56,461 nucleotides of DNA, taken from the NCBI GenBank assembly GCA_030680855.1, contig JAUXUN010000014.1:1-56461 (forward strand), in the 5' to 3' direction. A program made the translations under genes and the position numbers. Below the pieces are notes generated by a model, which saw nothing but the letters and a program-made list of their open reading frames with translations, was not told the DNA's origin and made no database searches. Source of the DNA: Aestuariivirga sp. Lineage in GTDB: Bacteria > Pseudomonadota > Alphaproteobacteria > Rhizobiales > Aestuariivirgaceae. Within the stretch, counting starts at the first letter, position 1, and each line of letters begins with the position of its first letter. Positions 34,687-53,370 of the stretch are shown piece after piece.

Positions 34687-34763
34687 GGCTCAACTCCGGC
34701 AGGGTTCAGAACATCCCGATAGATGCCTTGAACGAGCCGGGAAGTCGAGCCTGTTTCAGCAGG

Positions 34764-36092: not shown

Positions 36093-36104
36093 GGTCGAAT
36101 CCTC

Positions 36105-37193: not shown

Positions 37194-37233
37194 ATATTTG
37201 GCGTCGGTTAGCGGGTTTTATGGGGAATCAGGC

Positions 37234-39181: not shown

Positions 39182-40960
39182 TCAGGCCGCACCCTTTTGC
39201 GGACGCATGTCCGCCTTGCTGATATGTGCAACAGGCACCGGCTTTTTCATCGCATCCCGGCGAAAGGGCTCGCCGAGCTCCTGGTTGAGAATGACTTCGA
39301 TGAAAGTGGTGATACCCTTCGCCTGGTCCTCCGCCGCTTTCTTCAATGCGGCGGTTGTTTCGCTTTGCGTGCGAACCGTCACACCCTTGAACCCGCAGGC
39401 TTCCGCAATTTTTGCGTAGCTGAGTTTCGGATCAAGCTCCGTGCCCACGAAGTTGTTGTCATACCAGAGGATGGAGTTGCGCTTTTCCGCGCCCCATTGA
39501 TAGTTGCGGAAAATCACCATGGTGATGGCGGGCCACTGCTCGCGGCAGATGGAAGTCATTTCATTGATCGAAATGCCGAAGGCACCATCGCCTGCAAAGC
39601 CGAAGACCGGAATTTCAGGCTTGCCGATTTTCGCACCAATGATGGACGGGAATCCGTAACCGCAGGGGCCGAACAGGCCCGGCGCCAGATATTTGCGCCC
39701 CTCTTCAAAGGTTGGATAGGCATTGCCGATGGCGCAGTTGTTGCCGATGTCCGATGAGATCGTGGCGTTTGTCGGCAATCCCGCCTGAATGGCGCGCCAG
39801 GCCTGACGCGGCGACATGCGCTCCTTGTCGCGAACCCGCGCATCGGCATTCCATGTCGTGCCCGGATCATCATCCTCATGGTCCATAGAAGAGAGCTTCT
39901 GCAGCCAAGCCGACTTGGTCTGGTGGATGGTGGCCTTGCGGTCGGCGCGCCCGGCATCGCCTGCCTTGGGTGAAAGGCCCGCCAGAATCTGCTGCGCCAC
40001 CTGCCTGGCATCACCGCAAATGCCGACTGTGACTTTCTTGGTGAGGCCAATCCGGTCCGCATTGATATCCACCTGGATGATCTTGGCGTTCTTCGGCCAG
40101 TAATCGATGCCATAGCCCGGCAGCGTCGAAAATGGATTGAGCCGCGTGCCAAGGGCCAAAACAACGTCAGCCTTGGAAATCAATTCCATCGCCGCCTTCG
40201 AGCCATTGTAGCCGAGCGGCCCAACCGACAGGTAGTGGCTGCCGGGAAACGCATCATTGTGTTGGTAGCCGCAGCACACAGCGGCATCCAGCCGCTCGGC
40301 CAACATGATTGAATCCTTGATCGCACCACCGGTGACCACGCCGGCACCATTCACGATCACCGGGAACTTGGCGTCCGAGAGCAGGGCCGCGGCTTGCGCA
40401 ATCGCCTCCTTGCCGCCTGACGCGCGCTCGAACTTCACGATCTGCGGCAACTCGATATCGATGACATGCGTCCAGTAATCACGCGGCACATTGATCTGTG
40501 CGGGGCCACATCCACGCCATGCCTTTTCGATCACGCGGTTCAGGACTTCGGCAACGCGTGAGGGATCGCGCACTTCTTCCTGATAGCAGACCATGTCCTG
40601 GAACAACGCCATCTGCGGCACTTCCTGAAAGCCGCCCTGGCCCATCGTCTTGTTGGCCGCCTGCGGGGTGACAAGCAGCATCGGCGTGTGGTTCCAATAG
40701 GCCGTCTTCACGGCGGTTACAAAGCCGGTGACCCCCGGGCCATTCTGCGCAATCGCCATGCCCATTTTGCCGGTGACGCGGGAATAGCCATCGCAGATCA
40801 GCCCCGCATTGGTCTCATGCGCGCAATCCCAGAAGGTGATGCCCGCCTTGGGAAACAGGTCGGACACCGGCATCATCGCCGATCCGATAATGCCAAAGGC
40901 ATGTTCAATCCCGTGCATTTGCAGCACCTTTACAAATGCTTCCTCGGTGGTCATTTTCAT
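39182..40960 (-). CDS. xsc: Sulfoacetaldehyde acetyltransferase
   Basis: 592 residues, ThDP enzyme that converts sulfoacetaldehyde and phosphate to acetyl phosphate and sulfite. The opening MKMTTEEAFVKVLQMHGIEH and the stretch FGIIGSAMMPVSDLFPKAG are diagnostic of Xsc among ThDP enzymes; the cofactor motif begins GDGAFGISINEMTS. ATG at 40960 follows TGAAAGG by nine bases; an upstream TTG at 40966 is a weaker start. It is the key enzyme of taurine and isethionate dissimilation. It heads an operon with ackA and has paired CTGGACCT repeats upstream. Confidence 0.93.
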   Translation of the reverse strand: MKMTTEEAFVKVLQMHGIEHAFGIIGSAMMPVSDLFPKAGITFWDCAHETNAGLICDGYSRVTGKMGMAIAQNGPGVTGFVTAVKTAYWNHTPMLLVTPQAANKTMGQGGFQEVPQMALFQDMVCYQEEVRDPSRVAEVLNRVIEKAWRGCGPAQINVPRDYWTHVIDIELPQIVKFERASGGKEAIAQAAALLSDAKFPVIVNGAGVVTGGAIKDSIMLAERLDAAVCCGYQHNDAFPGSHYLSVGPLGYNGSKAAMELISKADVVLALGTRLNPFSTLPGYGIDYWPKNAKIIQVDINADRIGLTKKVTVGICGDARQVAQQILAGLSPKAGDAGRADRKATIHQTKSAWLQKLSSMDHEDDDPGTTWNADARVRDKERMSPRQAWRAIQAGLPTNATISSDIGNNCAIGNAYPTFEEGRKYLAPGLFGPCGYGFPSIIGAKIGKPEIPVFGFAGDGAFGISINEMTSICREQWPAITMVIFRNYQWGAEKRNSILWYDNNFVGTELDPKLSYAKIAEACGFKGVTVRTQSETTAALKKAAEDQAKGITTFIEVILNQELGEPFRRDAMKKPVPVAHISKADMRPQKGAA

Positions 40961-41015
40961 GGGCAAATTCCTTTCAGGGCAGGGCGCTCTTCTAGCAGGA
41001 ATCTGGCACCATGAC

Positions 41016-41045
41016 AGGTCCAGAAAACGGCGGTTTCAGGTCCAG
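41016..41045 (-). promoter_or_regulatory. Paired CTGGACCT direct repeats upstream of xsc (TauR-type site)
   Basis: On the minus strand CTGGACCT occurs at 41045-41038 and 41023-41016, exactly 22 bp apart, 56-85 bp before the xsc start codon. From memory, the MocR-family regulator TauR of Rhodobacter binds direct repeats of the form CTGGACYTAA. The distal copy overlaps the final codons of the oxygenase gene. The same word occurs between the MocR-type gene and soeA. Confidence 0.6.
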
Positions 41046-41704
41046 AGTGAACGCAGGCCGAAAAAGGCCGTGTCTTTCACCCGGCGCGCCACGCCCTGAA
41101 TGGTGGAATTCCGCGGATCCGTGCAATAGGTCATGCTCCACACGGCGCGGCGCTCGCCTTCGCTGATGGGGGTCACCTTGTGCCGGACCTTGGCGCCCTC
41201 AAAGAGAATGAGCCGGTTGGGCGGTGTTGCCACTTCCATATCGCGCCCGCCTTGCTTGGCCAGCAAATGCGCTGCCGAAAGACCGCCATCGCGGCCCCGG
41301 TTCACCACCGGAATGAGCACCGTGAAATGACGGCCCCGATAGAAGTTGTGATCATAGTGCCAGTTGATATGGTCGCCGGGCTTTTCATAAAAAAGCACCG
41401 AGCACGAACTCTCGTCGTGCAAAGGCGTAGGCTGCACCTCCACGCCGACGATGCGCGACACGATGCGGCGCATGGTGGCAGAACGATAGTGATTCACCAG
41501 GGTGGGCGCCTTCTCGCGAAGAACCGAATAGGCCACCGTGCTGCCCTTCTTGTGGGTTGGCAAATAGCTGCGCTCGGTTTCGATGAGCGCATTCACTTCC
41601 TCGGCCACGCGGGCAAAGAGATCAGCCGTCAGCACACTATCCAGCGTGGCGAGCTTTCCGGCGAATGACGGCGTTTCAAATGCATCAAGTGTCGTGACAA
41701 ACAT
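41036..41704 (-). CDS. Fe(II)/2-oxoglutarate dioxygenase (prolyl hydroxylase-like)
   Basis: 222 residues with the double-stranded beta-helix pattern of the P4Hc/2OG-FeII superfamily. The iron triad is visible as HYDHNFY (His-x-Asp, about residues 119-121) and the distal His in GAKVRHKVTPI, with Arg in SEGERRAVW likely binding 2-oxoglutarate. No signal peptide. Substrate unknown. It is 75 bp upstream of xsc on the same strand; taurine dioxygenase (TauD) belongs to a different 2OG subgroup, so I do not call it that despite the neighbourhood. Confidence 0.7.
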   Translation of the reverse strand: MFVTTLDAFETPSFAGKLATLDSVLTADLFARVAEEVNALIETERSYLPTHKKGSTVAYSVLREKAPTLVNHYRSATMRRIVSRIVGVEVQPTPLHDESSCSVLFYEKPGDHINWHYDHNFYRGRHFTVLIPVVNRGRDGGLSAAHLLAKQGGRDMEVATPPNRLILFEGAKVRHKVTPISEGERRAVWSMTYCTDPRNSTIQGVARRVKDTAFFGLRSLWT

Positions 41705-41824
41705 GTGTCAGCGGATAGGCGAGGATTTTGAATATCCGATGACGGATTTCACACTCATCCTTTCCCGTCCTCGAAAGAACGAGGCCGGAGAAGGAAGAAA
41801 TTGCGTAAGTCCTGTAGCCGCCGA

Positions 41825-42244
41825 TCAGTAAACCTTCACAGCCTTCCGGCTCATCGAAAAGCCGTGGGTGCCGCGCGTGCAGGTAAGCCCCGTGGTAGAG
41901 GAGATGCAACTGAAGGGGCCTTCCGACCACACTTCGCCATACTCGAATATGTTGTCACCCCCGCAGCAGGAAGGATCGCCCACATTGGTGATGCGTTCGG
42001 CCTTGCCCGAATCTCCCAGCATCACGCGCACATAGGAGGGCTCAACCCTGTCGCATGAGAGTTCTGCTCCGCCATCGGACGTTTTGTAAACGTCGGTGCC
42101 GCCGGCGGGCACGTAGAAGCAGCCGATGTTGCCGGAGGGCATGTTGAATTCCGTGAAGCCCTGGTCGTTCGGCTCGAATTCAACGGCGAGCGCTGGGGCG
42201 GCCAGCGCAAATATTGCAAAGGCTGATGCAGCGATGCGGATCAT
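41825..42244 (-). CDS. Secreted small protein with conserved Cys (DUF6636-like)
   Basis: 139 residues with a Sec signal peptide (about 1-20, ending PALAVEFE). The mature part has MPSGNIGCFYVP near residue 35, then C in LSCDR, a CC pair in DPSCCGG, and C in FSCISSTTGLTCTRGTHGF, six cysteines that could form disulfides in the periplasm. The order of blocks recalls the DUF6636 family; function unknown. AAAGGACTC precedes the ATG. It stands alone on the minus strand between the oxygenase and cupin genes. Confidence 0.65.
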   Translation of the reverse strand: MIRIAASAFAIFALAAPALAVEFEPNDQGFTEFNMPSGNIGCFYVPAGGTDVYKTSDGGAELSCDRVEPSYVRVMLGDSGKAERITNVGDPSCCGGDNIFEYGEVWSEGPFSCISSTTGLTCTRGTHGFSMSRKAVKVY

Positions 42245-42268
42245 TATCAGAGTCCTTTCAAAGCAATA

Positions 42269-42314
42269 AACTTGAAAGCAACTCTATCAAGTTCAACATG
42301 AATGCTGCTTGAAC
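42269..42314. repeat. CTTGAA/TTCAAG half-site cluster between the secreted protein and cupin genes
   Basis: AACTTGA (42269-42275) and TCAAGTT (42287-42293) form an inverted repeat around 11 bp. TTGAAC at 42309-42314 adds a third half-site opposite GTTCAA at 42291-42296. It is in the promoter region of the secreted-protein gene and could equally act as a cupin-gene terminator stem. Confidence 0.35.
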
Positions 42315-42315
42315 G

Positions 42316-42597
42316 CTATTTCAGCTCAATCTCGATGAAAGCATAATCTGTGTCATTGGCGTTGATCACATCATGCTCAACGCCTTCGCTGCGGAAATAG
42401 GGAACCCCCTTTTTCATCTCGGCAAAGCCTGTGCCATCCTTGGTTTCAAGCTTCACTTTTCCGTCCATCAGCGGCACGATCACATAGTCATGGCCATGCC
42501 GGTGCCAGCCCGTATTGGCCCCGGGCGCAAAGCGGTATTCGGTGACAATCACCTTGGCATTATCGATATGGACGATGGTTTTGGCACTTCCGGTCAT
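42316..42597 (-). CDS. Small cupin domain protein
   Basis: 93 residues, a single cupin barrel. Motif 1 is GWHRHGHDYVIVPLMDGKVK, with the metal-binding HxH-type histidines; motif 2 (PYFRSEGVEHDVINAND) supplies a further His. GAGGAG stands before the ATG. It is divergent from zur across 72 bp that hold the Zur box, the slot znuA occupies in many alphaproteobacteria, so zinc-dependent control is possible. Confidence 0.8.
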   Translation of the reverse strand: MTGSAKTIVHIDNAKVIVTEYRFAPGANTGWHRHGHDYVIVPLMDGKVKLETKDGTGFAEMKKGVPYFRSEGVEHDVINANDTDYAFIEIELK

Positions 42598-42652
42598 GGG
42601 GACTCCTCAAGTTTGCCCCATGTAGACGGGGAACTAGCAATTCCCGCAAGTA

Positions 42653-42667
42653 TGTTATATTATAACA
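42653..42667. promoter_or_regulatory. Zur box abutting the zur start codon
   Basis: TGTTATATTATAACA is an exact 7-1-7 palindrome (TGTTATA-T-TATAACA) matching the alphaproteobacterial Zur motif as I recall it. It ends 2 bp before the zur ATG at 42670 and lies 56 bp from the divergent cupin start. It would give zinc-dependent repression of zur-znuC-znuB, and possibly of the cupin gene. The site leaves no room for a ribosome binding site before the ATG at 42670. Confidence 0.8.
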
Positions 42668-42669
42668 AT

Positions 42670-43143
42670 ATGACCTTCCTTGACCCCCACCACGACCATG
42701 CCCATTGCACCGCTGACCTGATCGCCCGGGCCGAGCGCACCTGCGAGCGGCGCGGCAGCAAATTGACTGGCCAGCGCCGTGAAATCCTGAGCTCCGTGGC
42801 CCAAAGCCACTCCGCCGTTGGCGCCTATGACATCATTGAACGCATGGCCGAGCATGGCCCGCGCCCGGCCCCCATCACGGTTTACCGCGCCTTGGATTTT
42901 CTCCTCGCCCACGGCCTTGTCCACAAAATCGAAAGCCGCAATGCCTTCGTGGCCTGTTCCCATTCCCATGAGGGCCAGCCCGCGGCGCTTCTGATTTGTG
43001 AAACCTGCGGCACCGTGTCGGAGCTTGATGCGCCCGAGATCTTTGAGCGCATCACCGAGAAGGCAAAGGCGCGGAAATTTTCACCGGCCCATACCATGAT
43101 AGAAATGTCGGGCACCTGCGGCTCCTGCGCGAGGGCCGCCTGA
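42670..43143 (+). CDS. zur: Zinc uptake regulator, Fur family
   Basis: 157 residues. The N-terminus is His-rich (DPHHDHAHC), followed by the winged helix (KLTGQRREILSSVAQSHSAVGAYDIIERM) whose recognition region is APITVYRALDFLLAHGLVHKIES (quoted in part: TVYRALDFL). C-terminal metal motifs are CETCGTVSEL and CGSCARAA, the structural zinc site. The start at 42670 is preferred; an in-frame ATG at 42652 inside the operator would add six residues. It represses zinc import when zinc is sufficient and is the first gene of zur-znuC-znuB. Confidence 0.9.
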   Translation: MTFLDPHHDHAHCTADLIARAERTCERRGSKLTGQRREILSSVAQSHSAVGAYDIIERMAEHGPRPAPITVYRALDFLLAHGLVHKIESRNAFVACSHSHEGQPAALLICETCGTVSELDAPEIFERITEKAKARKFSPAHTMIEMSGTCGSCARAA

Positions 43144-43144
43144 C

Positions 43145-43903
43145 ATGCTGAAAGCCAATGACGCGTTGTTGAGCGCCCGCGATGTGACGCTCAATCTCAA
43201 CGGCCGCCTGATCCTTGACCGCGTGAACCTGGATGTGCGCCGGGGCGAGATCGTGACCGTGATCGGCCCCAATGGCGCGGGCAAATCAACGCTGGTGCGC
43301 GTCATGCTCGGCCTTCGCCCCCTGACCTCGGGCCGCATTGAACGGCTGGCCAATCTGAGTGTCGGCTATGTGCCGCAGAAGTTCCCGCAAACCGCCAATG
43401 TACCGATGGATGTGAAGCGGCTCCTGTCGCTCACCTTGAAACCGAGTGACAAGGATATTGACCGGGCCCTGGATGAAACCGGAATTTTGCATTTGAAGGA
43501 GGCCCGCGTTCCTTCCCTTTCTGGTGGCGAATTGCAGCGCGCCCTGCTGGCCCGCGCCCTGCTGCGCAAGCCTGATCTGCTGGTTCTCGATGAGCCGGTT
43601 CAATCCGTGGACTTCATCGGTGAAATGAAACTATACGAATTGATTTCCGGAATTCGCAAAACCCATGGCTGCGGCATTCTCATGGTAAGCCATGACCTGC
43701 ACATGGTGATGGCCGAAAGCGATCATGTGGTCTGTCTCAATGGCCATGTCTGCTGTGAGGGGGGCCCGGAAAAGGTGCAGCAGGACCCGGAATTCGCCAA
43801 GCTCTTTGGCCCTTCGGCGGCGCGCATGATCGCGGCCTACGCCCATCACCATGACCATGATCACGAGCCACATGACCACCATCATCATGACCACAGGCAC
43901 TGA
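43145..43903 (+). CDS. znuC: Zinc ABC transporter ATPase ZnuC
   Basis: 252 residues. Walker A GPNGAGKST, signature LSGGELQRA and Walker B LLVLDEPVQSVD are present. The C-terminus is a His/Asp run (HHHDHDHEPHDHHHHDHRH), a likely zinc-binding tail on the cytoplasmic side. It begins one base after the zur stop. The binding protein ZnuA is not adjacent; it must be encoded elsewhere for a working importer. Confidence 0.92.
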   Translation: MLKANDALLSARDVTLNLNGRLILDRVNLDVRRGEIVTVIGPNGAGKSTLVRVMLGLRPLTSGRIERLANLSVGYVPQKFPQTANVPMDVKRLLSLTLKPSDKDIDRALDETGILHLKEARVPSLSGGELQRALLARALLRKPDLLVLDEPVQSVDFIGEMKLYELISGIRKTHGCGILMVSHDLHMVMAESDHVVCLNGHVCCEGGPEKVQQDPEFAKLFGPSAARMIAAYAHHHDHDHEPHDHHHHDHRH

Positions 43904-43909
43904 CCGGAC

Positions 43910-44710
43910 ATGACCTCCATCCTTTTTGAACCCTTCTTCCAGCGCGCCATGCTTGCGGGCCTTGCGGTGGCCCTCGTGTCCGGCCCCGTCGGCTCTTTCA
44001 TTGTCTGGCGGCGTATGGCCTACTTCGGCGAAAGCCTCGCGCATTCCGGCCTGCTCGGCGTCGGGCTTGGATTGCTCTTCAGCTTCAACATAACGCTTGG
44101 CGCTGTGGTCACGGCCATTGTCTTCGCACTGCTTCTTCTCGCTCTGCGCCGCCAGCAGGGCCTGGCCACCGACACGCTGCTTGGCATTTTGTCTTATACG
44201 TCCCTGGCACTTGGCCTGATCGTGGTTGGCCTTGCCACCGGCGCTGCCTCCGATCACATGGACATCCTGTTTGGCGACGTGCTGACGGTTTCCACCCATG
44301 ATGTTTGGGCCGTCTGGATCGGTGCCGGTGTGGTGCTGGCGAGCCTGGCGTTCCTGTGGCGCGATCTGATCGCAAGCTCCGTGCACGAGGAATTGGCCCG
44401 CGCCGAAGGCGTGAAGGTGGAGCGGGTGGAACTCGGCTTCATCCTGCTCATCGCCGTGATGACCGCCATCGCCATGAAAATCGTTGGCCTCCTGCTCATC
44501 ACCGCCCTCATGGTCATCCCCGCCGCCGCCGCCCGCCGCCTGGCCAAAACGCCGGAGAGTATGGCTTTCATCGCCGCGGCGATCGCCGGCCTTTCGGTCA
44601 TCGCCGGGCTTCTCGCCTCCGCCTTTATCGGCGGCGCTTCCGGCCCCTGCGTGGTTCTGGCGGCAAGCTGTTTCTTCGCCTTGACCTTGGCTGTCCCGCA
44701 GGCCAGTTAG
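43910..44710 (+). CDS. znuB: Zinc ABC transporter permease ZnuB
   Basis: 266 residues with about eight predicted membrane helices of the ABC-3 family. [26 protein letters not shown] at the start is the conserved first loop (R-M-A-Y-F-G-E-x-L-A-H-S core); the family motif [11 protein letters not shown] ([14 protein letters not shown]) is near residue 118. It is 6 bp after znuC and 16 bp before ispG, which may read through from the zinc operon. Confidence 0.9.
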
Positions 44711-44726
44711 GGGGCAGGGAGTAACG

Positions 44727-45950
44727 ATGTCCTATTCGGCTAGAGAAACGCGGCGAAAAGCCCATGCTGTGATGGTGGGCCAGGTCCAGGTGGGCGGCGG
44801 CGCCCCCATCGTCGTGCAGTCCATGACCAATACCGACACCGCCGATATCGAAGGCACCGCCCGCCAGACGGCAGACCTCGCCAAGGCCGGCTCCGAGCTT
44901 GTCCGCATCACCGTGGACCGCGATGAATCGGCCAAAGCCGTGCCCCATATCCGCGACCGGCTGGACCAGATGGGCGTCTCCGTGCCGCTGGTGGGTGACT
45001 TCCATTACAACGGCCACACGCTGCTCAATGACCATCCGGCTTGCGCCGAGGCGCTGGCGAAATACCGCATCAACCCCGGCAACGTGGGCTTCAAGGAGAA
45101 GAAGGACCGCAACTTCTCCAGCATGATTGAAACCGCGCTGAGGTTCCGCCGCCCGGTGCGCATCGGGGTGAATTGGGGATCGCTCGATCAGGTGCTGTTG
45201 ACCCAGTTGATGGATGAAAACCACCGTTCTGGAAATCCCATCGACGCGCGCGCCGTCATGCATGAAGCCTTGGTACAATCCGGCATCCTGTCCGCCGCCC
45301 GCGCCGGCGAACTGGGCATGCCAGCAAACCAGATCGTGATATCGGCCAAGTGTTCGGAAGTCCAGGACCTGATCGCCGTCTACCGCATGCTTGCCACGCG
45401 CTGCGAACACGCCTTGCATTTGGGCCTCACCGAAGCGGGCATGGGATCGAAAGGCATCGTGGCCTCAACCGCGGCCCTTGGGGTTTTGTTGCAAGAAGGC
45501 ATTGGCGATACCATCCGCATTTCGCTCACCCCGGAACCCGGTGGCGACCGCACCCGCGAAGTGCTTGTCTCCCAGGAAATTCTGCAAACCATGGGGCTCC
45601 GCGCTTTCGCCCCCATGGTCATCGCCTGTCCCGGCTGCGGCCGCACCACCTCAACCGTGTTCCAGGAACTGGCCCAGGACATCCAGTTCTATGTGCGTGA
45701 CCGCATGGTGGACTGGCGGAAAGCTTATCCCGGTTTTGAAAACCTGTCGCTCGCCGTCATGGGCTGCATCGTGAACGGTCCCGGCGAATCCAAACATGCC
45801 GACATTGGAATTTCGCTGCCCGGCACCGGCGAACTGCCATCCGCCCCCGTCTACATTGACGGCAAGAAAACCACGACGCTGCGCGGCGAAAACATTTCGC
45901 AGCAGTTCAAGGACATTGTCGAGAATTACGTCAAGGGGCGCTGGGGCTAG
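44727..45950 (+). CDS. ispG: 4-hydroxy-3-methylbut-2-enyl diphosphate synthase (GcpE)
   Basis: 407 residues. Reduces the cyclic diphosphate MEcPP in the penultimate step of the MEP pathway, using a [4Fe-4S] cluster whose ligands are in [12 protein letters not shown] and [16 protein letters not shown]. The opening [20 protein letters not shown] and [13 protein letters not shown] are typical. dxs of the same pathway is in this window but not adjacent. Stop is 2 bp from the end of convergent ispA. Confidence 0.95.
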
Positions 45951-45952
45951 AA

Positions 45953-46843
45953 CTATTTTTTCCGCGAAACGATGAAGCGCGCGGCCTCGCGCAGCGTGTC
46001 GGCTTTTCCGCCATAGGGTGTTAACGCCGCAATGGCCGAAGCAACCAGGTTTTCTGCCTTTTCGGCCGCTGCCGTTCGTCCCATCAGCGAAGCAATGGTG
46101 GCTTTGCCTCTTTGCAAATCCTTTTGCGTGGCTTTGCCAAGTGCCTGTGGTGAAGACTCCATGTCAAGCAGGTCGTCGGTAATTTGAAAGGCAAGCCCGA
46201 TATCATCGGCGTAACGGCGAAGGGGAGCGCGATCAGCGCCCGCCATGATGGCTCCAGCCTCGCAGGCAAAACGGAAGAGGGCGCCCGTCTTGTGCGTTTG
46301 AATGCGGATGATGCTGTCCAGCGTTTGCGCAGCGCCTGCCTCGGCCTCAATATCAAGCATCTGTCCTCCCGCCATGCCGTTCACGCCCGAGGCTTTGGCC
46401 AATTCGAATACGAGAGCGCTGCGCACCGCCGCATCTGGATGCGTATCTGCGCCTGCCAAAATCTCAAATGCGAGAGTGAGCAGCGAGTCTCCCGCAAGAA
46501 TCGCCGTCGCCTCATCAAATTTCTTGTGCGCCGTAGGTTTGCCGCGCCGCAGGTCATCATCATCCATCGCCGGCAAATCATCATGCACCAGCGAATAGCA
46601 ATGCACGCATTCGAGTGCTGCCCCCACCCGCAAGGCGTTTGCCGCAGGCACATTGAACAGGCGCGCCGATTCAATCACCAGGAATGGCCGCAGGCGTTTT
46701 CCCGCTCCCAGCGCCGCATAGCGCATGGCGCCCAGCAAGCGCGGCGATGCGCTTTCGGAAAGCAACTGCTCCAGCATGGCATCAGTTGCCGCTGCCGCTT
46801 CTCTTAAGGCTGCTTCAAATTGTGTTTCGGATGTTGACGCCAA
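45953..46843 (-). CDS. ispA: Farnesyl/geranyl diphosphate synthase (polyprenyl synthetase)
   Basis: 296 residues. The first Asp-rich motif is HDDLPAMDDDDLRRGKPT with the two-residue insertion of bacterial farnesyl diphosphate synthases; the second is QITDDLLDME. It condenses IPP with DMAPP and GPP. The only start in frame is TTG at 46843, because a stop codon lies just upstream; it has only a weak ribosome binding site. It is divergent from mtgA with 37 bp between starts, and convergent with ispG. Confidence 0.92.
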   Translation of the reverse strand: MASTSETQFEAALREAAAATDAMLEQLLSESASPRLLGAMRYAALGAGKRLRPFLVIESARLFNVPAANALRVGAALECVHCYSLVHDDLPAMDDDDLRRGKPTAHKKFDEATAILAGDSLLTLAFEILAGADTHPDAAVRSALVFELAKASGVNGMAGGQMLDIEAEAGAAQTLDSIIRIQTHKTGALFRFACEAGAIMAGADRAPLRRYADDIGLAFQITDDLLDMESSPQALGKATQKDLQRGKATIASLMGRTAAAEKAENLVASAIAALTPYGGKADTLREAARFIVSRKK

Positions 46844-46880
46844 GGCCTGACCTGTGTGTTAAGACCTCCTGTGTACTGTT

Positions 46881-47615
46881 ATGACCATTGAAACTCAATC
46901 AGGCATGGTTGCATCGTCCAGGCGCTATCTCGACCAGTTGAAGGCGTGGCAGAGACGGTTTGTCTATGCCCTTGCCTTTATCATCGCCTGGCCCATCGTC
47001 ATGACGCTGGTTTACACCGCCGTGCCACCGCCGTTTTCGAATCTGATGATTCTCCGTCTTTTCACGGGAAACGGTGTCAACAAGGATTGGGTGAGCCTCA
47101 GCCAAATTTCGCCGCAGCTCGCCAATGCCGTCATCACGGCGGAGGACGCCCGCTTTTGCGAGCATAACGGGGTGGATTGGGTCGAATTTCAGGGTGTAGT
47201 GAACGACGTCTTTGGCGACGACGAAGGGCCAATTCGCGGCGCCAGCACCATTTCGATGCAAACCGCCAAGAACCTGTTTCTCTGGGATGGCCGCAGCTTC
47301 ATTAGAAAAGGCCTCGAGATTCCAATAGCTTACTGGATGAATTTGGTTCTCTCAAAGCGCCGCATGATTGAGATTTACCTCAACATCGTTGAATGGGCGC
47401 CCGGCGTCTATGGCGCCGAGGCCGCCTCCCAGTTCCATTTCAGGAAGCCCGCCGCCAAGCTGACCAGGCGCGAGGCCGCCCTTCTTGCGGCCGTTCTGCC
47501 TAATCCCATCAAACGCAAGGCCGGAAAGCCCTCAAGTCGCGTTTCCGCCATTGCCAACCGCATTATGTCGCGGATGAATAGCATGGGCTCGTATCTCGCT
47601 TGTCTTGGGCCATAA
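46881..47615 (+). CDS. mtgA: Monofunctional peptidoglycan glycosyltransferase
   Basis: 244 residues of glycosyltransferase family 51. One N-terminal membrane anchor (about 28-50) precedes the catalytic domain. Motifs are ITAEDARFCEHNGVDW (catalytic Glu), RGASTISMQTAKNLFLW, and RRMIEIYLNIVEWAPGVYGA. It polymerises glycan strands from lipid II in the periplasm. No transpeptidase domain. It is divergent from ispA. Confidence 0.93.
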   Translation: MTIETQSGMVASSRRYLDQLKAWQRRFVYALAFIIAWPIVMTLVYTAVPPPFSNLMILRLFTGNGVNKDWVSLSQISPQLANAVITAEDARFCEHNGVDWVEFQGVVNDVFGDDEGPIRGASTISMQTAKNLFLWDGRSFIRKGLEIPIAYWMNLVLSKRRMIEIYLNIVEWAPGVYGAEAASQFHFRKPAAKLTRREAALLAAVLPNPIKRKAGKPSSRVSAIANRIMSRMNSMGSYLACLGP

Positions 47616-47628
47616 GCTTCGCTATAAG
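47600..47628 (+). promoter_or_regulatory. Candidate promoter of rpmF
   Basis: TTGTCT at 47600-47605, a 17-bp spacer and TATAAG at 47623-47628, overlapping the 3' end of mtgA and 46 bp before the rpmF start. A stem GGTGGGC-TTAA-GCCCGCC at 47641-47658 would lie in the leader. Confidence 0.45.
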
Positions 47629-47674
47629 CCGCCCAACCGCGGTGGGCTTAAGCCCGCCTGATATGGAGTAGATT

Positions 47675-47860
47675 ATGGCCGTTCCACGCAGAAAAATGTC
47701 AAAAAGCCGTATCGGCATGCGCCGTTCAGGCCAGAAGATGCAGACGATTACCTGGATTGAGGACAAAAAGTCCGGCGAATTGCGCCGGCCTCACCACATT
47801 GACCTGAAGACCGGCATGTATCGTGGCCGCCAGGTTCTGGCCGTCAAGGCCGACGCTTAA
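47675..47860 (+). CDS. rpmF: 50S ribosomal protein L32
   Basis: 61 residues. [19 protein letters not shown] and the C-terminal [20 protein letters not shown] are those of bacterial L32. The zinc-ribbon cysteines found in some L32 proteins are absent (C-minus form). TGGAGT precedes the ATG. A strong terminator follows at 47884. Confidence 0.95.
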
Positions 47861-47883
47861 TCATCGCCTTTTGAAGCTTTGGG

Positions 47884-47907
47884 ACCGGTCGTATGACCGG
47901 TTTTTTT
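47884..47907 (+). terminator. Intrinsic terminator after rpmF
   Basis: ACCGGTC (47884-47890) pairs with GACCGGT (47895-47901) around GTAT, followed by a run of T (TTTTTTC). It stands 24 bp after the rpmF stop codon. Confidence 0.9.
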
Positions 47908-47959
47908 CTTTATATATCAACGCTTGACGGTCTGGCCCATGTCTTGCAGCGGGAGCCCT

Positions 47960-49072
47960 ATGTTGGCAGGAAACTGGCGGATGGTAACGGCGGCTAATCT
48001 GCGTGGAAGCGCGGAAATGGATGCCGTTTTGCCTGCCTGGAGGCGCCTTGCGGACCACAGTCTGGCGCCCGCGGGGCTTAACGCCCCGGAGCTGGTCATG
48101 CCTCTTTTGAGGGGCCTGGCGGGTGCCGAACTTGCCGTGGTGAAACAGGGCAATGACCTGCTCTTTGCCCTTCCCATAAAGAAGCGCCGCTTCATGCCCG
48201 CCCTCTTTACCAATTGGATGACTGACCTCACCATTATAGGCGAACCCCACCTCGACCGGGAGTTTCCGGCAGCGGGCTTAACCTCATTCATTAATCATCT
48301 GAAAAGTCCCATTCTGCTGCACTCCCTGAAGGTAAACGGTCCATTTTGGAACCAGCTCGCCAGGCAGGATGCCCAGGTTTCCATTCTCAAGTCCTGGGAA
48401 CGCGCCGCACTGAATCTGACTGGAACCTACGAGGCTTGGGCCGAATCCAATTTCGGAGCCAAGCGCCGCAAGGAATATCGCCGCCTGACAAACCGGCTGT
48501 CCGAATTGGGCAACTTCGAGTCCGTAAGCCTCGAAGCCGGGCGCGATTGCAAGCCATGGGTGGCGGATCTGCTGGCCCTTGAGGCAGCCGGCTGGAAGGG
48601 CAAGCGCGGCACTGCCATCGCCGCAAACCCCGCGTTGCAGGCAGCCTTCACGGACTCCTGTCAGTTCCTCGCCGCCGCCGGAAAACTCCGCTTCTGGAAG
48701 CTCGCCCTTGATGGCAAAACCATCGCCATCACCTACGCCATTGTGGAAGGCGACCAGGCGTGGCTCCACAAGATTGCCCATGACGAGGCTTACGCGAAAT
48801 ATTCGCCCGGCGTCCTGCTCGTGCTTTACGCCACCGAAAGACTTTTCGCCGAAAGCGGCATCACCCTTGTTGATAGCTGCGCCATTCCCGGCCACCCGAT
48901 GATTGAGAACATCTGGCGTGACCGGATCAAGGTGGCTGACGTGATGATTGCCCCAAATTCAATTGGCGTAAAGCGCTTCGCAATGACGCTGAAGGCCGAA
49001 CGGTTGCGCCGTGCAATGCGGACATTTGCCAGTGACGCCTACAATTCTGTGAGGGGAAGGAAGAGATCATGA
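47960..49072 (+). CDS. BioF2-like (CelD/PF13480) acetyltransferase family protein
   Basis: About 370 residues with an N-terminal region and a C-terminal GNAT-like BioF2 domain. Typical blocks are FGAKRRKEYRRLTNRLSE, LRFWKLALDGKTIAITYAI and YAKYSPGVLLVLYATERLFA. Relatives take part in exopolysaccharide or amino-sugar modification, but this one is alone and its substrate is open. The start at 47960 is supported by GGGAG six bases before it; an ATG at 47939 is possible. It lies between the rpmF terminator and a repeat element. Confidence 0.7.
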   Translation: MLAGNWRMVTAANLRGSAEMDAVLPAWRRLADHSLAPAGLNAPELVMPLLRGLAGAELAVVKQGNDLLFALPIKKRRFMPALFTNWMTDLTIIGEPHLDREFPAAGLTSFINHLKSPILLHSLKVNGPFWNQLARQDAQVSILKSWERAALNLTGTYEAWAESNFGAKRRKEYRRLTNRLSELGNFESVSLEAGRDCKPWVADLLALEAAGWKGKRGTAIAANPALQAAFTDSCQFLAAAGKLRFWKLALDGKTIAITYAIVEGDQAWLHKIAHDEAYAKYSPGVLLVLYATERLFAESGITLVDSCAIPGHPMIENIWRDRIKVADVMIAPNSIGVKRFAMTLKAERLRRAMRTFASDAYNSVRGRKRS

Positions 49073-49128
49073 GCATCAATGCCACCCTTGCAACTCGTCG
49101 CAGGTTTCTTCTTGCACCCAAAAGAAGA

Positions 49129-49149
49129 TGGCCGGGTCAAGCCCGGCCA
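49129..49149. repeat. GGCCGGG palindromic element, relative of the 14.6-kb repeat
   Basis: TGGCCGGG (49129-49136) and CCCGGCCA (49142-49149) pair around TCAAG, in the 106-bp gap between convergent genes. The design (GG-Y-CGGG, five-base loop, CCCG-R-CC) matches the hairpins at 14561-14580 and 14621-14640, as a third single copy. Confidence 0.65.
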
Positions 49150-49178
49150 CGATGAGGTTGTAGAGTATAAGGGGTCGC

Positions 49179-50297
49179 TTACCCCGCAGTAACCTTGTCA
49201 GCCGCCACATAGGCATAGCCCAGGTCATCAGCCACGGCCTTGTAGGTCACTTTGCCAAGGGCAACGTTCAGGCCGTTCTTCAAATGCACGTCATCGGCAA
49301 GCGCCTTCTTCCAGCCCTTGTTGGCAATGGCCAAGGCGAAGGGCAGGGTGACGTTGTTCAAGGCGAAAGTGGAGGTGCGCGCCACGCCGCCCGGCATGTT
49401 GGCCACGCAGTAGTGGATGACGCCGTCCACAATATAGGTGGGATCCGCATGGGTCGTGGCCTTCGAGGTTTCAGCACAGCCACCCTGGTCGATAGCCACG
49501 TCAACGAACACAGAGCCGGGCTTCCAGTCCTTCAGCATCTTCCTGGTCACAAGCTTTGGCGCTGCGGCGCCGGGAATGAGCACACCGCCGATGACGAGGT
49601 CGGCGGTGGCGCATTCATCTTCAATGGCGCCCTGGGTGGAGTAAAGCGTCTTGGTGCTGATGCCAAAGCGGGCCACCAGTTCTTCCATACGGTCCGTGCT
49701 GCGCTCGATGATGGTGACATCCGCGCCCATGCCAATGGCTATCGCCGCCGCATTTGTGCCGACAACACCGCCGCCAAGGATGACGACCTTGGCCGGAGAA
49801 ACTCCGGGAACGCCCCCCAGCAGCATGCCGCGTCCGCCCTGGGCTTTTTCAAGACAATGCGCGCCGGACTGAACCGACATGCGGCCCGCGACCTGGCTCA
49901 TGGGGGCGAGCAGCGGAAGCCCGCCACGCGCTGCAGTTACGGTTTCATAGGCAATGCACACGGCCCCGGACTTTACGAGGTCCTTTGTCTGCTCCGGATC
50001 CGGAGCAAGGTGGAGATAGGTGTAAAGGATCTGGCCTTCGCGCAGCATGGCGCGTTCGCCCGCCTGTGGCTCCTTGACCTTCACGATCATGTCGGCCTTG
50101 GCGAAAATGTCTTCGGCGGATTTGACGATCTCGCCGCCAGCCGCCGTGTAATCGGCATCTGATGCGCCGATACCACCGCCGGCATTGGATTGCACCCAAA
50201 CCTTGTGGCCGTTGCGCACCGCTTCGCGCACCGAAATTGGCGTTAAACCGACGCGGTATTCATGATTTTTGATTTCCTTGGGTACGCCGATGAGCAT
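49179..50297 (-). CDS. ald: Alanine dehydrogenase
   Basis: 372 residues. [20 protein letters not shown] is the conserved opening (substrate-binding Arg and the Lys region follow), and the NAD-binding fold contains [22 protein letters not shown] (core GGGVVGTNA). It interconverts alanine and pyruvate plus ammonia with NADH. ATG at 50297 follows GGAGGAAC; the longer open frame to 50372 lacks conserved residues. It is divergent from an Lrp-type regulator gene, a common arrangement (AldR), so alanine-responsive control is likely. Confidence 0.94.
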
Positions 50298-50340
50298 TGC
50301 CGTTCCTCCAGTTGAGTGCCGACAAAATATCCCATTTCCA

Positions 50341-50399
50341 TTCGAAAGAATTGCCAAAAACAAGCAAAGCAAAGGCCGGGTTGATATAAAATTCGAATT
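50341..50399. promoter_or_regulatory. Paired TTCGAA motifs between ald and its Lrp-type regulator
   Basis: TTCGAA at 50341-50346 and, within the palindrome AATTCGAATT, at 50390-50399 (TTCGAA 50392-50397). Centres are 51 bp apart, about five helical turns, which fits an Lrp-type octamer wrapping DNA. The region is AT-rich compared with its surroundings. Confidence 0.45.
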
Positions 50400-50416
50400 A
50401 TTATAAGAATAGTGGA

Positions 50417-50884
50417 ATGAAATACGAAGAATTGGACAAGACCGATAAGATCATTCTGACCGAGCTGCAAAAAAATGCCCGGCAGTCAATCAATGAGCTC
50501 GCCGCAAAGGCGGGCCTTTCCGCCTCGTCATGCCATCGCCGCGTGAAGCTTCTTGAAGAGGCGGGAACCATTACCCGCTACACCGCAACGCTTGACCGTA
50601 GGGCGCTGGGGCTGGCCAATGAATTCTTTGTTGAAGTGTCGCTATCGGCGCAAACCGAAGAGGCCTTTGAAAAATTCGAAAAGGCGGTTCAGCGCGTGCC
50701 CGAGATTCTCGAATGCCATTTGATGAGCGGCCAGTTCGACTATCTCCTCCGCGTCGTCGCCAGCGATGCGGCAGACTACGAGCGTATCCACCGCTCGCGC
50801 ATTTCGCGCCTGCCCGGCATCCAGCGCATTCAATCCTCACTGGCGCTGCGCACCGTGAAAGCCTGGGCCGGCTATCCCGTTTGA
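50417..50884 (+). CDS. Lrp/AsnC family transcriptional regulator
   Basis: 155 residues. The helix-turn-helix (DKIILTELQKNARQSINELA, then SASSCHRRVKLLEE) is followed by the RAM ligand-binding domain (FFVEVSLSAQTEEAFEKFE onward, with HLMSGQFDYLLRVVA). Divergent from ald, with 119 bp between starts, it probably senses alanine and controls ald and itself. The last 13 bp overlap tail-to-tail with the DMT exporter gene. Confidence 0.9.
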   Translation: MKYEELDKTDKIILTELQKNARQSINELAAKAGLSASSCHRRVKLLEEAGTITRYTATLDRRALGLANEFFVEVSLSAQTEEAFEKFEKAVQRVPEILECHLMSGQFDYLLRVVASDAADYERIHRSRISRLPGIQRIQSSLALRTVKAWAGYPV

Positions 50885-51816
50885 AACCGGGCGCGGCGAT
50901 CCATGATCAGCATGAAGAAACCTGCGCCTGCGACAATCGCCATGCCGCTCCAGGTCCAGAAATCCGGAAAGTCGTTGAAGAACATAAGTCCGAATAAAAC
51001 CGCCCAGATCATGCCTGAATACTCAAAGGGGGCGACGAAATTTGATTCAGCCAGCTTGTAGGCGGAAATGAAACTCATCATGGCGAAGGCCGCCAACGCC
51101 CCCACCGCGCTCAGCAGCAGAAAGTCCGGCGGGGTGGGCCAGACAAATGGCCGTGTAAGAAAGGCAAGACTCTTGTGGCTCTCGCCTGCAAATCCGCTGG
51201 CCTGTGCGATAAGACCGACAACCGCCGCAAAGACAAAATAGACCGCGTTCTGCCAGTTGGCGATGACCAACGGTTCCACCCGTTGCGCCAGATCGCGCCC
51301 CATCATTTGCCCGATGGCATAACCAAAGGCCGAATAGAGTGCGAGCAGTGACGCGGGCTCAAAGGCCTGCACGCCGGGCCGCACCATGACGATCACCCCG
51401 GCAAAGCCTGCAACAATGGCAATCCAGCGGTAATAGGGAACACGCTCGCCGAGGAAAGGCCCGGCAAGGCCCGCCACAAAAAACGGCATGGTGAAATAAA
51501 TCGCCACCATGTTGGCTATCGGCATTGCCGCTATTGCGAGAATAAAGGCGAGGTAGGCCGTACACAGGATAAGGGCGCGCACCAGCATACGTGGCCAGAG
51601 CGGCGTGAAGAGCGTCTGAAGCCCGTGAGTATATGCCAGCCAGACGCCGAGTATCGGCAAGGAGGTGAGGCCGCGGATCAGCATGGTCTCATACACCGGA
51701 TAGGTGCCGGACATGGCCTTGATAATCGCATCCTGCGTTGACGCCAATCCGATGGCCAGAAGCACAAGCACGGCCGCCCGCGCCTTGTTATCGCCCGGAC
51801 TATGAGTTGGCATCAT
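50872..51816 (-). CDS. DMT superfamily (EamA) transporter
   Basis: 314 residues, ten predicted helices in two EamA repeats. The first repeat includes GLTSLPILGVWLAY and ILCTAYLAFILAIAAMPIAN, and the second YSGMIWAVLFGLMFFNDFPDFW. These are usually exporters of amino acids or metabolites. It overlaps the start of its upstream MocR-type regulator gene's 3' end by 17 bp on the same strand, so the two are cotranscribed; the ligand may be the regulator's effector, for example a sulfonate or an amino acid. Confidence 0.85.
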   Translation of the reverse strand: MMPTHSPGDNKARAAVLVLLAIGLASTQDAIIKAMSGTYPVYETMLIRGLTSLPILGVWLAYTHGLQTLFTPLWPRMLVRALILCTAYLAFILAIAAMPIANMVAIYFTMPFFVAGLAGPFLGERVPYYRWIAIVAGFAGVIVMVRPGVQAFEPASLLALYSAFGYAIGQMMGRDLAQRVEPLVIANWQNAVYFVFAAVVGLIAQASGFAGESHKSLAFLTRPFVWPTPPDFLLLSAVGALAAFAMMSFISAYKLAESNFVAPFEYSGMIWAVLFGLMFFNDFPDFWTWSGMAIVAGAGFFMLIMDRRARFQTG

Positions 51817-53278
51817 GGATCGTTTCGGCCAGCAGTTTCACGCCCGGGGCAATTTTCTTTTCGTCGATGGAGGAGAAGGCCAGGCGGAAATAGTTCTTCG
51901 GCGGGTTCCGCCTGCCGAAATTTATCCGTCCCGGTTCAATGAGAATGCTCTTGGCCGCCGCAGCCTTCGCCAATACTTCGCTGTCGAGCTCGGCCGGACC
52001 CTTCACCCAGAAACTCGTGCCGCCAAAGCTTGGCAGGCGCGACGAGGCGGGAAAGTGCTGCTCCAGCGCCTTGCCCATGATTTCCCAGCGTGTGCGGTAA
52101 GCCCGGTGCAGGCGGCGGATCAGGGTGTCATGATGGCCAAGCGAGAGAAACAGGGCAGCGGTACGCTGGTTGTTGTTGGGCGCATGGCGCACCATAAGGC
52201 GGCGCAGCGCCCGCGCTTCCGCAATGAGCTTCTTCGGCCCCACCATGAAGCCAAGCCGCAGGCCGGGGAACAGCGATTTGGACAATGAGCCCACGTAGAT
52301 CACATGGCCCTTGTCATCGAGTGATTTAAGCGCCGGGCAGGGCTCGTTCACGTAATTTGTTTCAAACTCGTAGTCATCCTCGATGATGATGAAATCGCGC
52401 GCCGCCGCAAGTTTCAATAAAGCCATGCGCCGCTCAATGGGCATGGTGGCGGTGGTCGGGAATTGGTGGCTGGGCGTGGTGAAAACAATTTGCGCATTGC
52501 TGAGATCGGCATTGAGCGTCAGGCCGTGGTCATCAACCGGTACCAGCGCCACATGCTTTGATTTCAATTGGAAGATATTGCGCATATCGGGATAACCCGG
52601 CTCTTCCATTGCCACGCGGGTATCCTCATCAACCAGAAGGCTCGTCAGCAGGTAAAGCGCGTTCTGCGCCCCCAGGGTGATGAGAATTTCATCGTCGGTG
52701 GCCATGATGCCACGGCGCGGCAATATTCGCCGCCGGATATGCTCAACCAGCATGGGGTCGTCATGGGCCCAGGTATCATTGGTCCAGGTGCCGAGCCATT
52801 TCTTTCCCAGCGCCTGCCGTGTGCAGTCGCGCCATTCGGCCACCGGAAACAGCGTATGGTCAACCTGCCCATAGATGAAGGGATAGGTGTAGCTCTGCCA
52901 GTTCAGGGCCTTTGAGATGTTTTCCTGGGCAGCCGGATTTTTCTTGAAGCGGCTTGCCCAGTCGATCTCTGTAGCGGTGCCATTGGCCTTTGCCGCAGGG
53001 CTGCGTTTCGGCAGAACCGTATCAAGCCCGGCTTTCTCCGCCACATAATATCCGGAGCGCTCCTTTGCCACCAGGAAACCGTCATCGAGCAGTCCCTGAT
53101 AGGCCAGAACCACCGTATTGCGCGAGACACTGAGAGACTTTGCCATTTTGCGGGTGGAGGGAATGGGCTCCTCGCGCGCCAGCTGCTGGTCAAGAATGGC
53201 CGAAACCAGGGCCTCGCGGATTTGCATCTGCAGGCTTGAGTTTTCTGAACGCTTGATATGAACGAGCCAGTCGCGCAA
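51800..53278 (-). CDS. MocR-family regulator (GntR helix-turn-helix fused to PLP aminotransferase domain), TauR-like
   Basis: 492 residues. The GntR winged helix (about 15-85, PSTRKMAKSLSVSRNTVVLAY) is joined by a linker to a fold-type I aminotransferase domain with the PLP lysine in GSLSKSLFPGLRLGFMVG. The start is TTG at 53278, the only one at the family's natural beginning (RDWLVHIKR). Members sense PLP-bound amines; TauR activates taurine catabolism genes. The divergent soeA and the motif CTGGACCT upstream, also before xsc, point to a TauR-like role, by inference. It overlaps the EamA gene by 17 bp. Confidence 0.85.
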   Translation of the reverse strand: MRDWLVHIKRSENSSLQMQIREALVSAILDQQLAREEPIPSTRKMAKSLSVSRNTVVLAYQGLLDDGFLVAKERSGYYVAEKAGLDTVLPKRSPAAKANGTATEIDWASRFKKNPAAQENISKALNWQSYTYPFIYGQVDHTLFPVAEWRDCTRQALGKKWLGTWTNDTWAHDDPMLVEHIRRRILPRRGIMATDDEILITLGAQNALYLLTSLLVDEDTRVAMEEPGYPDMRNIFQLKSKHVALVPVDDHGLTLNADLSNAQIVFTTPSHQFPTTATMPIERRMALLKLAAARDFIIIEDDYEFETNYVNEPCPALKSLDDKGHVIYVGSLSKSLFPGLRLGFMVGPKKLIAEARALRRLMVRHAPNNNQRTAALFLSLGHHDTLIRRLHRAYRTRWEIMGKALEQHFPASSRLPSFGGTSFWVKGPAELDSEVLAKAAAAKSILIEPGRINFGRRNPPKNYFRLAFSSIDEKKIAPGVKLLAETIHDANS

Positions 53279-53283
53279 TTGAT

Positions 53284-53313
53284 TTGGTCCCCAGGAAATA
53301 ACCGTCTGGACCT
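53284..53313. promoter_or_regulatory. CTGGACCT with a degenerate 22-bp partner between the MocR-type gene and soeA
   Basis: CTGGACCT at 53306-53313 and TTGGTCCC (five of eight match) at 53284-53291, exactly 22 bp apart, in the 92-bp divergent region. The pair CCAG/CTGG at 53290-53293 and 53306-53309 also forms an inverted repeat. Same spacing as the xsc site. Confidence 0.5.
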
Positions 53314-53370
53314 ATCATAGTACCAACCCGCGCCCTAATGTAGGCCGGAATCGTCGCATCCTGGAACCCA

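Follow-up and report, generated by a model that had tools for sequence, protein, structure and literature searches.

Two sites, one upstream of xsc and one between a regulator gene and soeA, appear to be operators of a single TauR-like activator (51800–53278) that would switch on xsc and soeA(BC) jointly in a feed-forward manner; the probability of this reading is estimated at about 0.79. Both lie in the window, the whole 56,461-nt stretch of an Aestuariivirga sp. contig that was analysed. The sites, their rarity, their conservation, the box geometry and the gene context were read directly from the sequence. The original prediction of one regulon joining Xsc and Soe is supported at this level, because the operator is conserved at both promoters, 53 of 64 matches to a site model are located at tauR or xsc, and gene order links tauR with xsc and, by way of an aminotransferase gene, with soeA.

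Table 1. Genes and predicted regulatory elements of the xsc and tauR–soeA regions in the window
Feature	Position	Strand	Sequence and evidence
ackA-like acetate kinase gene	38128..39162	minus	19 bp past xsc; TIGR00016, 277 bits, slightly below the cut-off of 293
xsc, sulfoacetaldehyde acetyltransferase	39182..40966	minus	ATG at 40960; NCBIfam NF005713, 1025 bits, and TIGR03457, 967 bits, both over cut-off
-10-like hexamer TAGAAG at xsc	40989..40994	minus	8 bp past the palindrome; sequence
xsc operator palindrome (predicted; box 2 + inverted box 3)	41003..41023	minus	CTGGACCTGTCATGGTGCCAG; pattern, matrix and model matches
xsc operator box 1 (predicted)	41038..41045	minus	CTGGACCT; sequence
tauR-like MocR/GntR regulator gene	51800..53278	minus	Pfam GntR and Aminotran_1_2; NCBIfam; synteny
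soeA/tauR operator box 1 (predicted)	53284..53291	plus	TTGGTCCC
soeA/tauR operator palindrome (predicted)	53306..53326	plus	CTGGACCTATCATAGTACCAA; pattern, matrix and model matches
-10-like hexamer TAATGT facing soeA	53336..53341	plus	9 bp past the palindrome
soeA, molybdoprotein subunit, putative cytoplasmic sulfite dehydrogenase	53371..56178	plus	Pfam Molybdop_Fe4S4, Molybdopterin, Molydop_binding

The ackA-like gene is possibly on the xsc transcript. The Pfam domains of SoeA are those of a molybdopterin subunit with an N-terminal Fe4S4 site. In the NCBIfam search 25 models matched, all under cut-off and none named for SoeA. In Aestuariivirga litoralis L067, soeA is followed by soeB- and soeC-type genes, for a ferredoxin-type (PF13247) and a DmsC/NrfD-type (PF04976) subunit, and in the window genome these would fall beyond the window end. 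A cytoplasmic location is a defining trait of SoeABC. The N terminus of SoeA starts with MTEPVIETSPKTW, in which a twin-arginine (RR) motif was not seen by inspection, and SoeA is termed cytosolic in PMC4334477.

As noted originally, CTGGACCT occurs twice upstream of xsc on the minus strand (41038–41045 and 41016–41023) with a spacing of exactly 22 bp. In the gap between tauR and soeA, TTGGTCCC (53284–53291), which differs from this octamer in three of eight bases, is followed 22 bp on by CTGGACCT (53306–53313), both on the plus strand. The direct repeats are therefore present, but they describe only half of the site, omitting the palindrome and a third box: both sites share the continuation CTGGACCTRTCATRGTRCCA, absent from the earlier description, and the full order is box 1, a 22-bp step, a 21-bp imperfect palindrome composed of box 2 and an inverted box 3, 8–9 bp, and a -10-like hexamer. 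On sequence evidence, the palindrome is the best-conserved part of this three-box element. The CTGGAC boxes of both sites resemble CTGGACYTAA-type TauR direct repeats, with a partial match at the YTAA end and a degenerate box 1 at soeA. The latter box lies 5 nt from the tauR start codon, at the expected tauR ribosome-binding site. Box 1 at xsc also encodes the C-terminal residues of the upstream oxygenase ORF.

The octamer CTGGACCT by itself carries little weight, since it was counted nine times in the window against 1.08 expected. Exact CTGGACY-N15-CTGGACY is found only at xsc in the 3.73-Mb genome. The proposed genome scan for the box pair with up to two mismatches turned out unfavourably, returning 82 places where the reversed control had 84, so that the soeA pair, although present at the spacing originally noted, is not significant alone, and the 22-bp direct repeat was rejected as sufficient evidence. 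Two further patterns were both composed after the sites had been seen. The 20-mer CTGGACCTRTCATRGTRCCA, composed from the two sites so that both fit by construction, has no further place in the 3.73-Mb genome with up to three mismatches (three places for the reversed control), and a looser palindrome pattern derived from family sites is matched perfectly in 3.73 Mb at just two places, the xsc and soeA sites. A site model (R1) applied to the window genome returned the two sites with E-values of 3e-4 and 5e-4, the next place having 0.33.

The decisive evidence from sequence for the site being real is its conservation among relatives, the intergenic regions of which bear out the original prediction. 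The palindrome is kept in all 27 tauR–soeA divergent intergenic regions from 32 family loci, matching 14–20 of the 21 bases of a consensus picked after the regions had been seen. In a scan at p<0.01 with a matrix trained on tauR–soeA sites, 19 of the 41 family genomes had the palindrome 41–85 bp ahead of the xsc start, against about 0.4 expected, and the other 22 family promoters had no site at this threshold; among named loci, the site was found at only 7 of 20 xsc promoters.

Of the 64 site-model matches in 69 genomes, 39 lie no more than 400 bp upstream of tauR and 14 no more than 400 bp upstream of xsc, 53 in all. Among the 11 remaining matches, six precede a divergent Xsc (46–47% identity), one represents a tauR–soeA divergon broken by a contig end, two lie near contig ends in a way consistent with a cut-off xsc, and two family matches (G049:C459 and G014:C3) are without explanation. 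Because family sites served to train both the model and the matrix, this survey speaks for specificity; near-independent evidence comes only from the 38 more distant named loci (tauR below 66% identity), at least one of which (L095) looks like a family genome. In 24 of these 38 the palindrome was found upstream of tauR (p<0.01). Spacing is also near-fixed for two elements that the palindrome score does not cover, box 1 and the -10-like hexamer. Of 19 distinct soeA regions, 18 have box 1 at 22 bp, whereas only 10 of the 19 xsc sites have it at 22 or 23 bp; the TA of the hexamer has the 9-bp offset in 19 of the 26 distinct soeA regions, and is at offsets of 8, 9 and 10 in 7, 8 and 3 of the 19 distinct xsc sites.

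By synteny, the regulator is TauR-like. It combines a GntR-type DNA-binding domain (PF00392) with a class I aminotransferase-like domain (PF00155), both over the gathering score; its best solved relative is GabR, and its top NCBIfam model is PdxR (362 bits, over cut-off), not TauR. The start codon is TTG; at this residue several kin carry ATG. In 14 of the 80 named loci a kin of tauR stands directly before xsc, with xsc no more than 400 bp downstream, and a class III aminotransferase gene lies between tauR and soeA in four loci. Identity to Sinorhizobium meliloti homologues is about 45%. On the phylogenetic tree, Sinorhizobium TauR has a long branch and groups with a 13-row xsc-linked set (support 89/97, unstarred). 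Two MocR paralogues of the window genome, likewise on a long branch, share an unresolved fork with the window protein. In S. meliloti, the tauA promoter region, TauR-dependent according to PMC4254191, carries CTGGACT and CTGGATA at 22 bp.

In the mechanism that we infer, which extends to binding by the regulator, activation, its ligand and the activity of Soe, a head-to-tail MocR dimer would occupy box 1 and box 2, 22 bp being two helical turns, and the inverted box 3 would complete a palindrome lying over each promoter's -35 region. Once loaded with PLP and its ligand, the regulator would activate soeA(BC) together with xsc (and ackA); given such joint induction, sulfite-oxidising capacity would go up as sulfite is released. 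Since box 1 at soeA overlaps the expected tauR ribosome-binding site, the same site could also permit TauR to limit its own synthesis.

It is improbable, though worth weighing, that the tauR–soeA site serves autoregulation of tauR only, with an independent soeA promoter and xsc as the only other gene under TauR control. The site does stay with tauR where soeA is elsewhere, and a strong site within 250 bp of soeA was then found in none of six loci, counting soeA genes located near tauR; the idea that soeA always bears its own operator was thereby rejected, and soeA seems to be wired via the tauR divergon or a common operon. However, the -10-like hexamer 9 bp past the palindrome faces soeA and is conserved in 19 of 26 divergent regions, and in four of the six separated loci soeA is preceded by an aminotransferase gene that points away from tauR, in one by tauR plus another gene on the same strand, so that a tauR-linked transcript is still possible there.

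Binding of the palindrome by another regulator, a second MocR or an unrelated factor to which the TauR-like gene is merely a neighbour, is considerably less probable: four weaker MocR-like or aminotransferase-like matches (27–37% identity) exist in the genome, and TGG/TGT groups are common to MocR boxes (PMC5320631, section 9), but 39 of the 64 model matches lie immediately upstream of the TauR-like gene, a position that the site also takes in 24 of the 38 more distant loci. Chance, with CTGGAC common in the window and the 22-bp spacing coincidental, would fit the octamer count, the control-level number of two-mismatch pairs and the location of xsc box 1 within an ORF, but is scarcely credible given the palindrome, which is rare in the genome and conserved at both promoters.

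A search of the window genome found nothing close to the tauR-linked aminotransferase (best 47%), called missing at a strict threshold of E 1e-160 that 2 of 69 genomes pass, or to TauY (best 31%), which makes taurine doubtful as inducer of the proposed TauR-like activator. The 'Tpa' between tauR and soeA was named from context, its NCBIfam name being omega-aminotransferase AptA; since the 47% relative outscores the tauR-linked aminotransferase on the AptA model (695 versus 593 bits), loss of taurine transamination is not proven. One could tentatively speculate that the Aestuariivirga TauR regulon has been cut to its sulfite half, Xsc and SoeABC on one three-box operator without close Tpa or TauY, and that another C2 sulfonate or sulfoacetaldehyde, in place of taurine, is the signal of a dedicated feed-forward switch building sulfite disposal before sulfite appears.

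In Ruegeria pomeroyi, SPO3561 is presumably xsc. For strain DSS-3, PMC4334477 (2014) lists soeC (SPO3557), soeB (SPO3558), soeA (SPO3559), pta (SPO3560) and tauR (SPO3562), and, as with tauR–soeA in the window, tauR and soeABC fall within six consecutive locus tags; unlike in that cluster, xsc of the window is 12 kb away with its own predicted operator copy. The TauR regulon of alphaproteobacteria (Rhodobacter capsulatus, S. meliloti) was reconstructed in PMC5320631, which in 2016 predicted TauR control of 'bisC/hybA/dmsC' in some Rhodobacterales; by subunit type, bisC, dmsC and hybA are probably soeA, soeC and soeB. That work agrees with our data in the MocR-type regulator, the CTGGACY-type boxes, xsc as a target and, in some genomes, ackA. 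It reads bisC/dmsC/hybA as possibly accepting electrons from TauXY, whereas close TauY and tauR-linked aminotransferase were not found here, and its quoted consensus is the direct repeat CTGGACYTAA (its figure 1 may show a third box), whereas here the palindromic third box is best conserved. The TauR–Soe link has precedents of its kind in these two sources; newer, on our predictions, are the Aestuariivirga members, the palindromic operator and the TauR/Xsc/Soe set without close Tpa or TauY.

How sulfite poisoning is avoided during bacterial sulfonate degradation is a partly open question, and the placing of sulfite release and disposal on one predicted operator predicts their joint induction. 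It also offers a sequence-based ground for reading the 'bisC/dmsC/hybA' genes in published TauR regulons anew, as sulfite dehydrogenase, and the motif is short and specific enough to be used to find such regulons in uncultured alphaproteobacteria. SorT/SorA under ECF sigma factors (PMC6527743) are likewise sulfite-oxidising enzymes regulated during sulfur compound use; the signal there is sulfite, and in S. meliloti it takes more than 120 min after taurine before sorT rises. From the layout in the window, by contrast, the sulfite-oxidising enzyme would be induced along with Xsc.

The gene upstream of xsc in the window encodes an Fe(II)/2-oxoglutarate oxygenase, which was considered as a regular xsc partner but adjoins xsc in only 4 of 40 loci tested. 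It was matched beside all six divergent-Xsc genes, once only as a short piece.

The sites predicted upstream of xsc and soeA are both present in the window, at the positions stated: at xsc, CTGGACCT is repeated exactly with a spacing of 22 bp, and at soeA, TTGGTCCC and CTGGACCT lie at the same spacing. CTGGACCT is over-represented in the window, with 9 occurrences versus 1.08 expected. Taken alone, the 22-bp pair at soeA is not unusual: a genome scan with the two-box pattern, allowing up to two mismatches, returned 82 places versus 84 for the reversed control. The likeness of the two sites extends past the originally described boxes, CTGGACCT being followed by RTCATRGTRCCA at both. The resulting 20-mer, which is derived from the two sites themselves, has no further places within three mismatches in the 3.73-Mb genome, versus three for the reversed control. 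Box 2 and the tail RTCATRGTRCCA form a 21-bp imperfect palindrome. When the genome was scanned with a degenerate pattern of this palindrome, drawn from the family sites, only the xsc and soeA sites fitted without mismatch and 10 further places fitted with one; the reversed control gave 32 places altogether. Likewise, R1, a profile of the operator built from 38 sites, reached E < 0.01 in the genome only at these two sites. Reading towards the gene, the order is box 1, 22 bp, the palindrome (box 2 and inverted box 3), 8–9 bp and a -10-like hexamer, with the start codon about 28–29 bp further on. In the survey by Suvorova and Rodionov (PMC5320631), MocR operators most often have this combination of two direct boxes and one inverted box.

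Among the 69 family genomes searched, the regulator was found in 55 (E ≤ 1e-120) and xsc in 46 (E ≤ 1e-200). In 27 of the 32 loci from regulator-bearing genomes examined for soeA, tauR and soeA are divergent within 600 bp. The palindrome is kept in all 27 of these regions, with 14–20 of the 21 bases of our own consensus. Two elements outside the scored palindrome also keep their place: the TGG of box 1 has the exact 22-bp spacing in 18 of the 19 distinct regions long enough for the test, and in 19 of 26 distinct regions the TA of the -10-like hexamer shares a single offset. Among named loci with tauR kin, a site precedes tauR (p < 0.01) in 38 of 41 with tauR identity of at least 66% and in 24 of 38 below this value.

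For xsc, a matrix trained solely on soeA sites was run over the 150 bp upstream of the gene, with p calculated against 6000 random windows. Of the 46 genomes with xsc, 41 were scored, one was skipped because its locus had too little upstream DNA and 4 were not retrieved; 6 duplicate loci were removed. A site was detected in 19 of the 41 genomes at p < 0.01 (10 at p < 0.001), 41–85 bp from the start. The remaining 22 promoters, including those of other genera and of several Aestuariivirga with a half-degenerate site, failed at p < 0.01, and only 7 of 20 xsc promoters of the named loci passed. In the 19 distinct xsc sites that match the consensus at 13 or more of its 21 bases, the -10-like TA lies at offset 8 in 7, 9 in 8 and 10 in 3; the TGG of box 1 has a spacing of 22 bp in 3 sites and of 23 bp in 7 others. 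Thus, an exact direct repeat at 22 bp is not what is generally conserved at xsc.

In a census of the 69 genomes, R1 (E ≤ 0.1) marked 64 distinct places, of which 39 precede tauR, 14 precede xsc and 11 lie elsewhere; since the training sites come from the same genomes, these figures show specificity rather than independent discovery. Six of the 11 precede an Xsc only 46–47% identical to that of the window, at 58–59 bp from the start in the five with the start read. These divergent genes occur in G004 and G053–G057 (loci L231 and L233–L237), where xsc looks as if it had been replaced under the same control; the operator thus appears to track Xsc even where the gene is a distant homologue. Another place is a tauR–soeA divergon at a contig end (G016). 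Two near contig ends fit a cut-off xsc: that in G015 shares a contig with the xsc-linked oxygenase, and in G003 the xsc of the genome begins at the end of another contig. The last two, in G049 and G014, have no tauR or xsc start alongside (table). The G049 place lies upstream of a gene judged by eye to be class V aminotransferase-like, on a contig that also bears a cut xsc.

The regulator is a MocR protein whose best NCBIfam model is PdxR, while synteny argues for TauR. In 14 of the 80 named loci, the genes of its kin share the xsc strand and stop no more than 400 bp from xsc. In four loci (L077, L084, L085 and L086) the gene between tauR and soeA encodes a class III aminotransferase, which from its context is probably Tpa. 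In S. medicae, the homologue and tauA are transcribed divergently. The S. meliloti homologue, about 45% identical to the window regulator, matches TauR, which, according to PMC4254191, activates the tauA promoter with taurine; the tauR–tauA region there contains CTGGACT and CTGGATA 22 bp apart. On the tree, S. meliloti TauR joins xsc-linked kin (support 89/97), but two MocR paralogues of the window genome, on a long branch, share an unresolved fork with the window regulator; such a topology does not settle the identity of the regulator.

SoeA has the domains of the molybdoprotein family, and inspection revealed no twin-arginine signal in it. In A. litoralis, soeA is followed by genes for a 4Fe-4S ferredoxin-type subunit and a DmsC-type anchor; the window counterparts, soeB and soeC, would lie past its end. 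None of the six loci with soeA away from tauR (L056, L076, L077, L084, L085 and L086) has a strong soeA site of its own. In four of them soeA is preceded by an aminotransferase gene that points away from tauR, and in L056 soeA comes after tauR and one further gene, all three in the same direction. Passages of PMC5320631 place xsc and ackA in TauR regulons and, in some Rhodobacterales, also bisC, dmsC and hybA, with the suggestion that the products of these three may be electron acceptors for TauXY; judged by subunit type, the three probably correspond to soeA, soeC and soeB, respectively. An excerpt of PMC4334477 lists soeC, soeB, soeA, pta and tauR within SPO3557–3562 of Ruegeria pomeroyi. 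The TauR–Soe link is therefore known in substance, and no title or abstract opening found in the literature searched names SoeABC as a TauR target.

The palindrome covers the expected place of the -35 element, which would be consistent with an activator-dependent promoter, and box 1 at soeA, separated by 5 nt from the start codon of tauR, would be consistent with autorepression of tauR, both judged from site geometry. If Xsc and Soe were induced jointly, the control would be feed-forward; SorT of S. meliloti differs in that, according to PMC6527743, it responds to sulfite via an ECF sigma factor and is delayed after taurine.

Features of the window and two isolated R1 places in other family genomes
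Feature	Position	Strand	Remarks
Downstream genes	33046–37073	-	shortly downstream of the xsc region; encode a second TPP enzyme (PRK08199 family), a 442-aa product with no Pfam match and a protein weakly resembling TAXI-type TRAP binding proteins
pta, ackA	37198–39162	+, -	convergent, 21-bp overlap; ackA 19 bp after xsc
xsc	39182–40966	-	
HalD-like Fe(II)/2-oxoglutarate oxygenase ORF	41036–41704	-	ends inside the xsc operator; last codons form box 1
tauR-like MocR gene	51800–53278	-	
soeA	53371–56178	+	
R1 place, G049	C459:8347–8369		
R1 place, G014	C3:64326–64343		

As to what feeds Xsc, only two of the 69 genomes yielded a protein closely related to the tauR-linked class III aminotransferase at a strict threshold (E ≤ 1e-160), in contrast to the 55 with the regulator and 46 with xsc. 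The best match in the window genome is 47% identical and could still act on taurine. For the Sinorhizobium TauY-like oxidoreductase, a query taken as TauY because of where it sits among the S. medicae tau genes, the best window-genome match has 31% identity.

In 4 of 40 close xsc loci the oxygenase ORF is the neighbour of xsc, and it was matched beside all six divergent Xsc genes, in one case as no more than a short piece. Its substrate could be a sulfonate. The window contains both pta and ackA; PMC5320631 describes them as never together in a TauR regulon. The genes further downstream may belong to sulfonate uptake.
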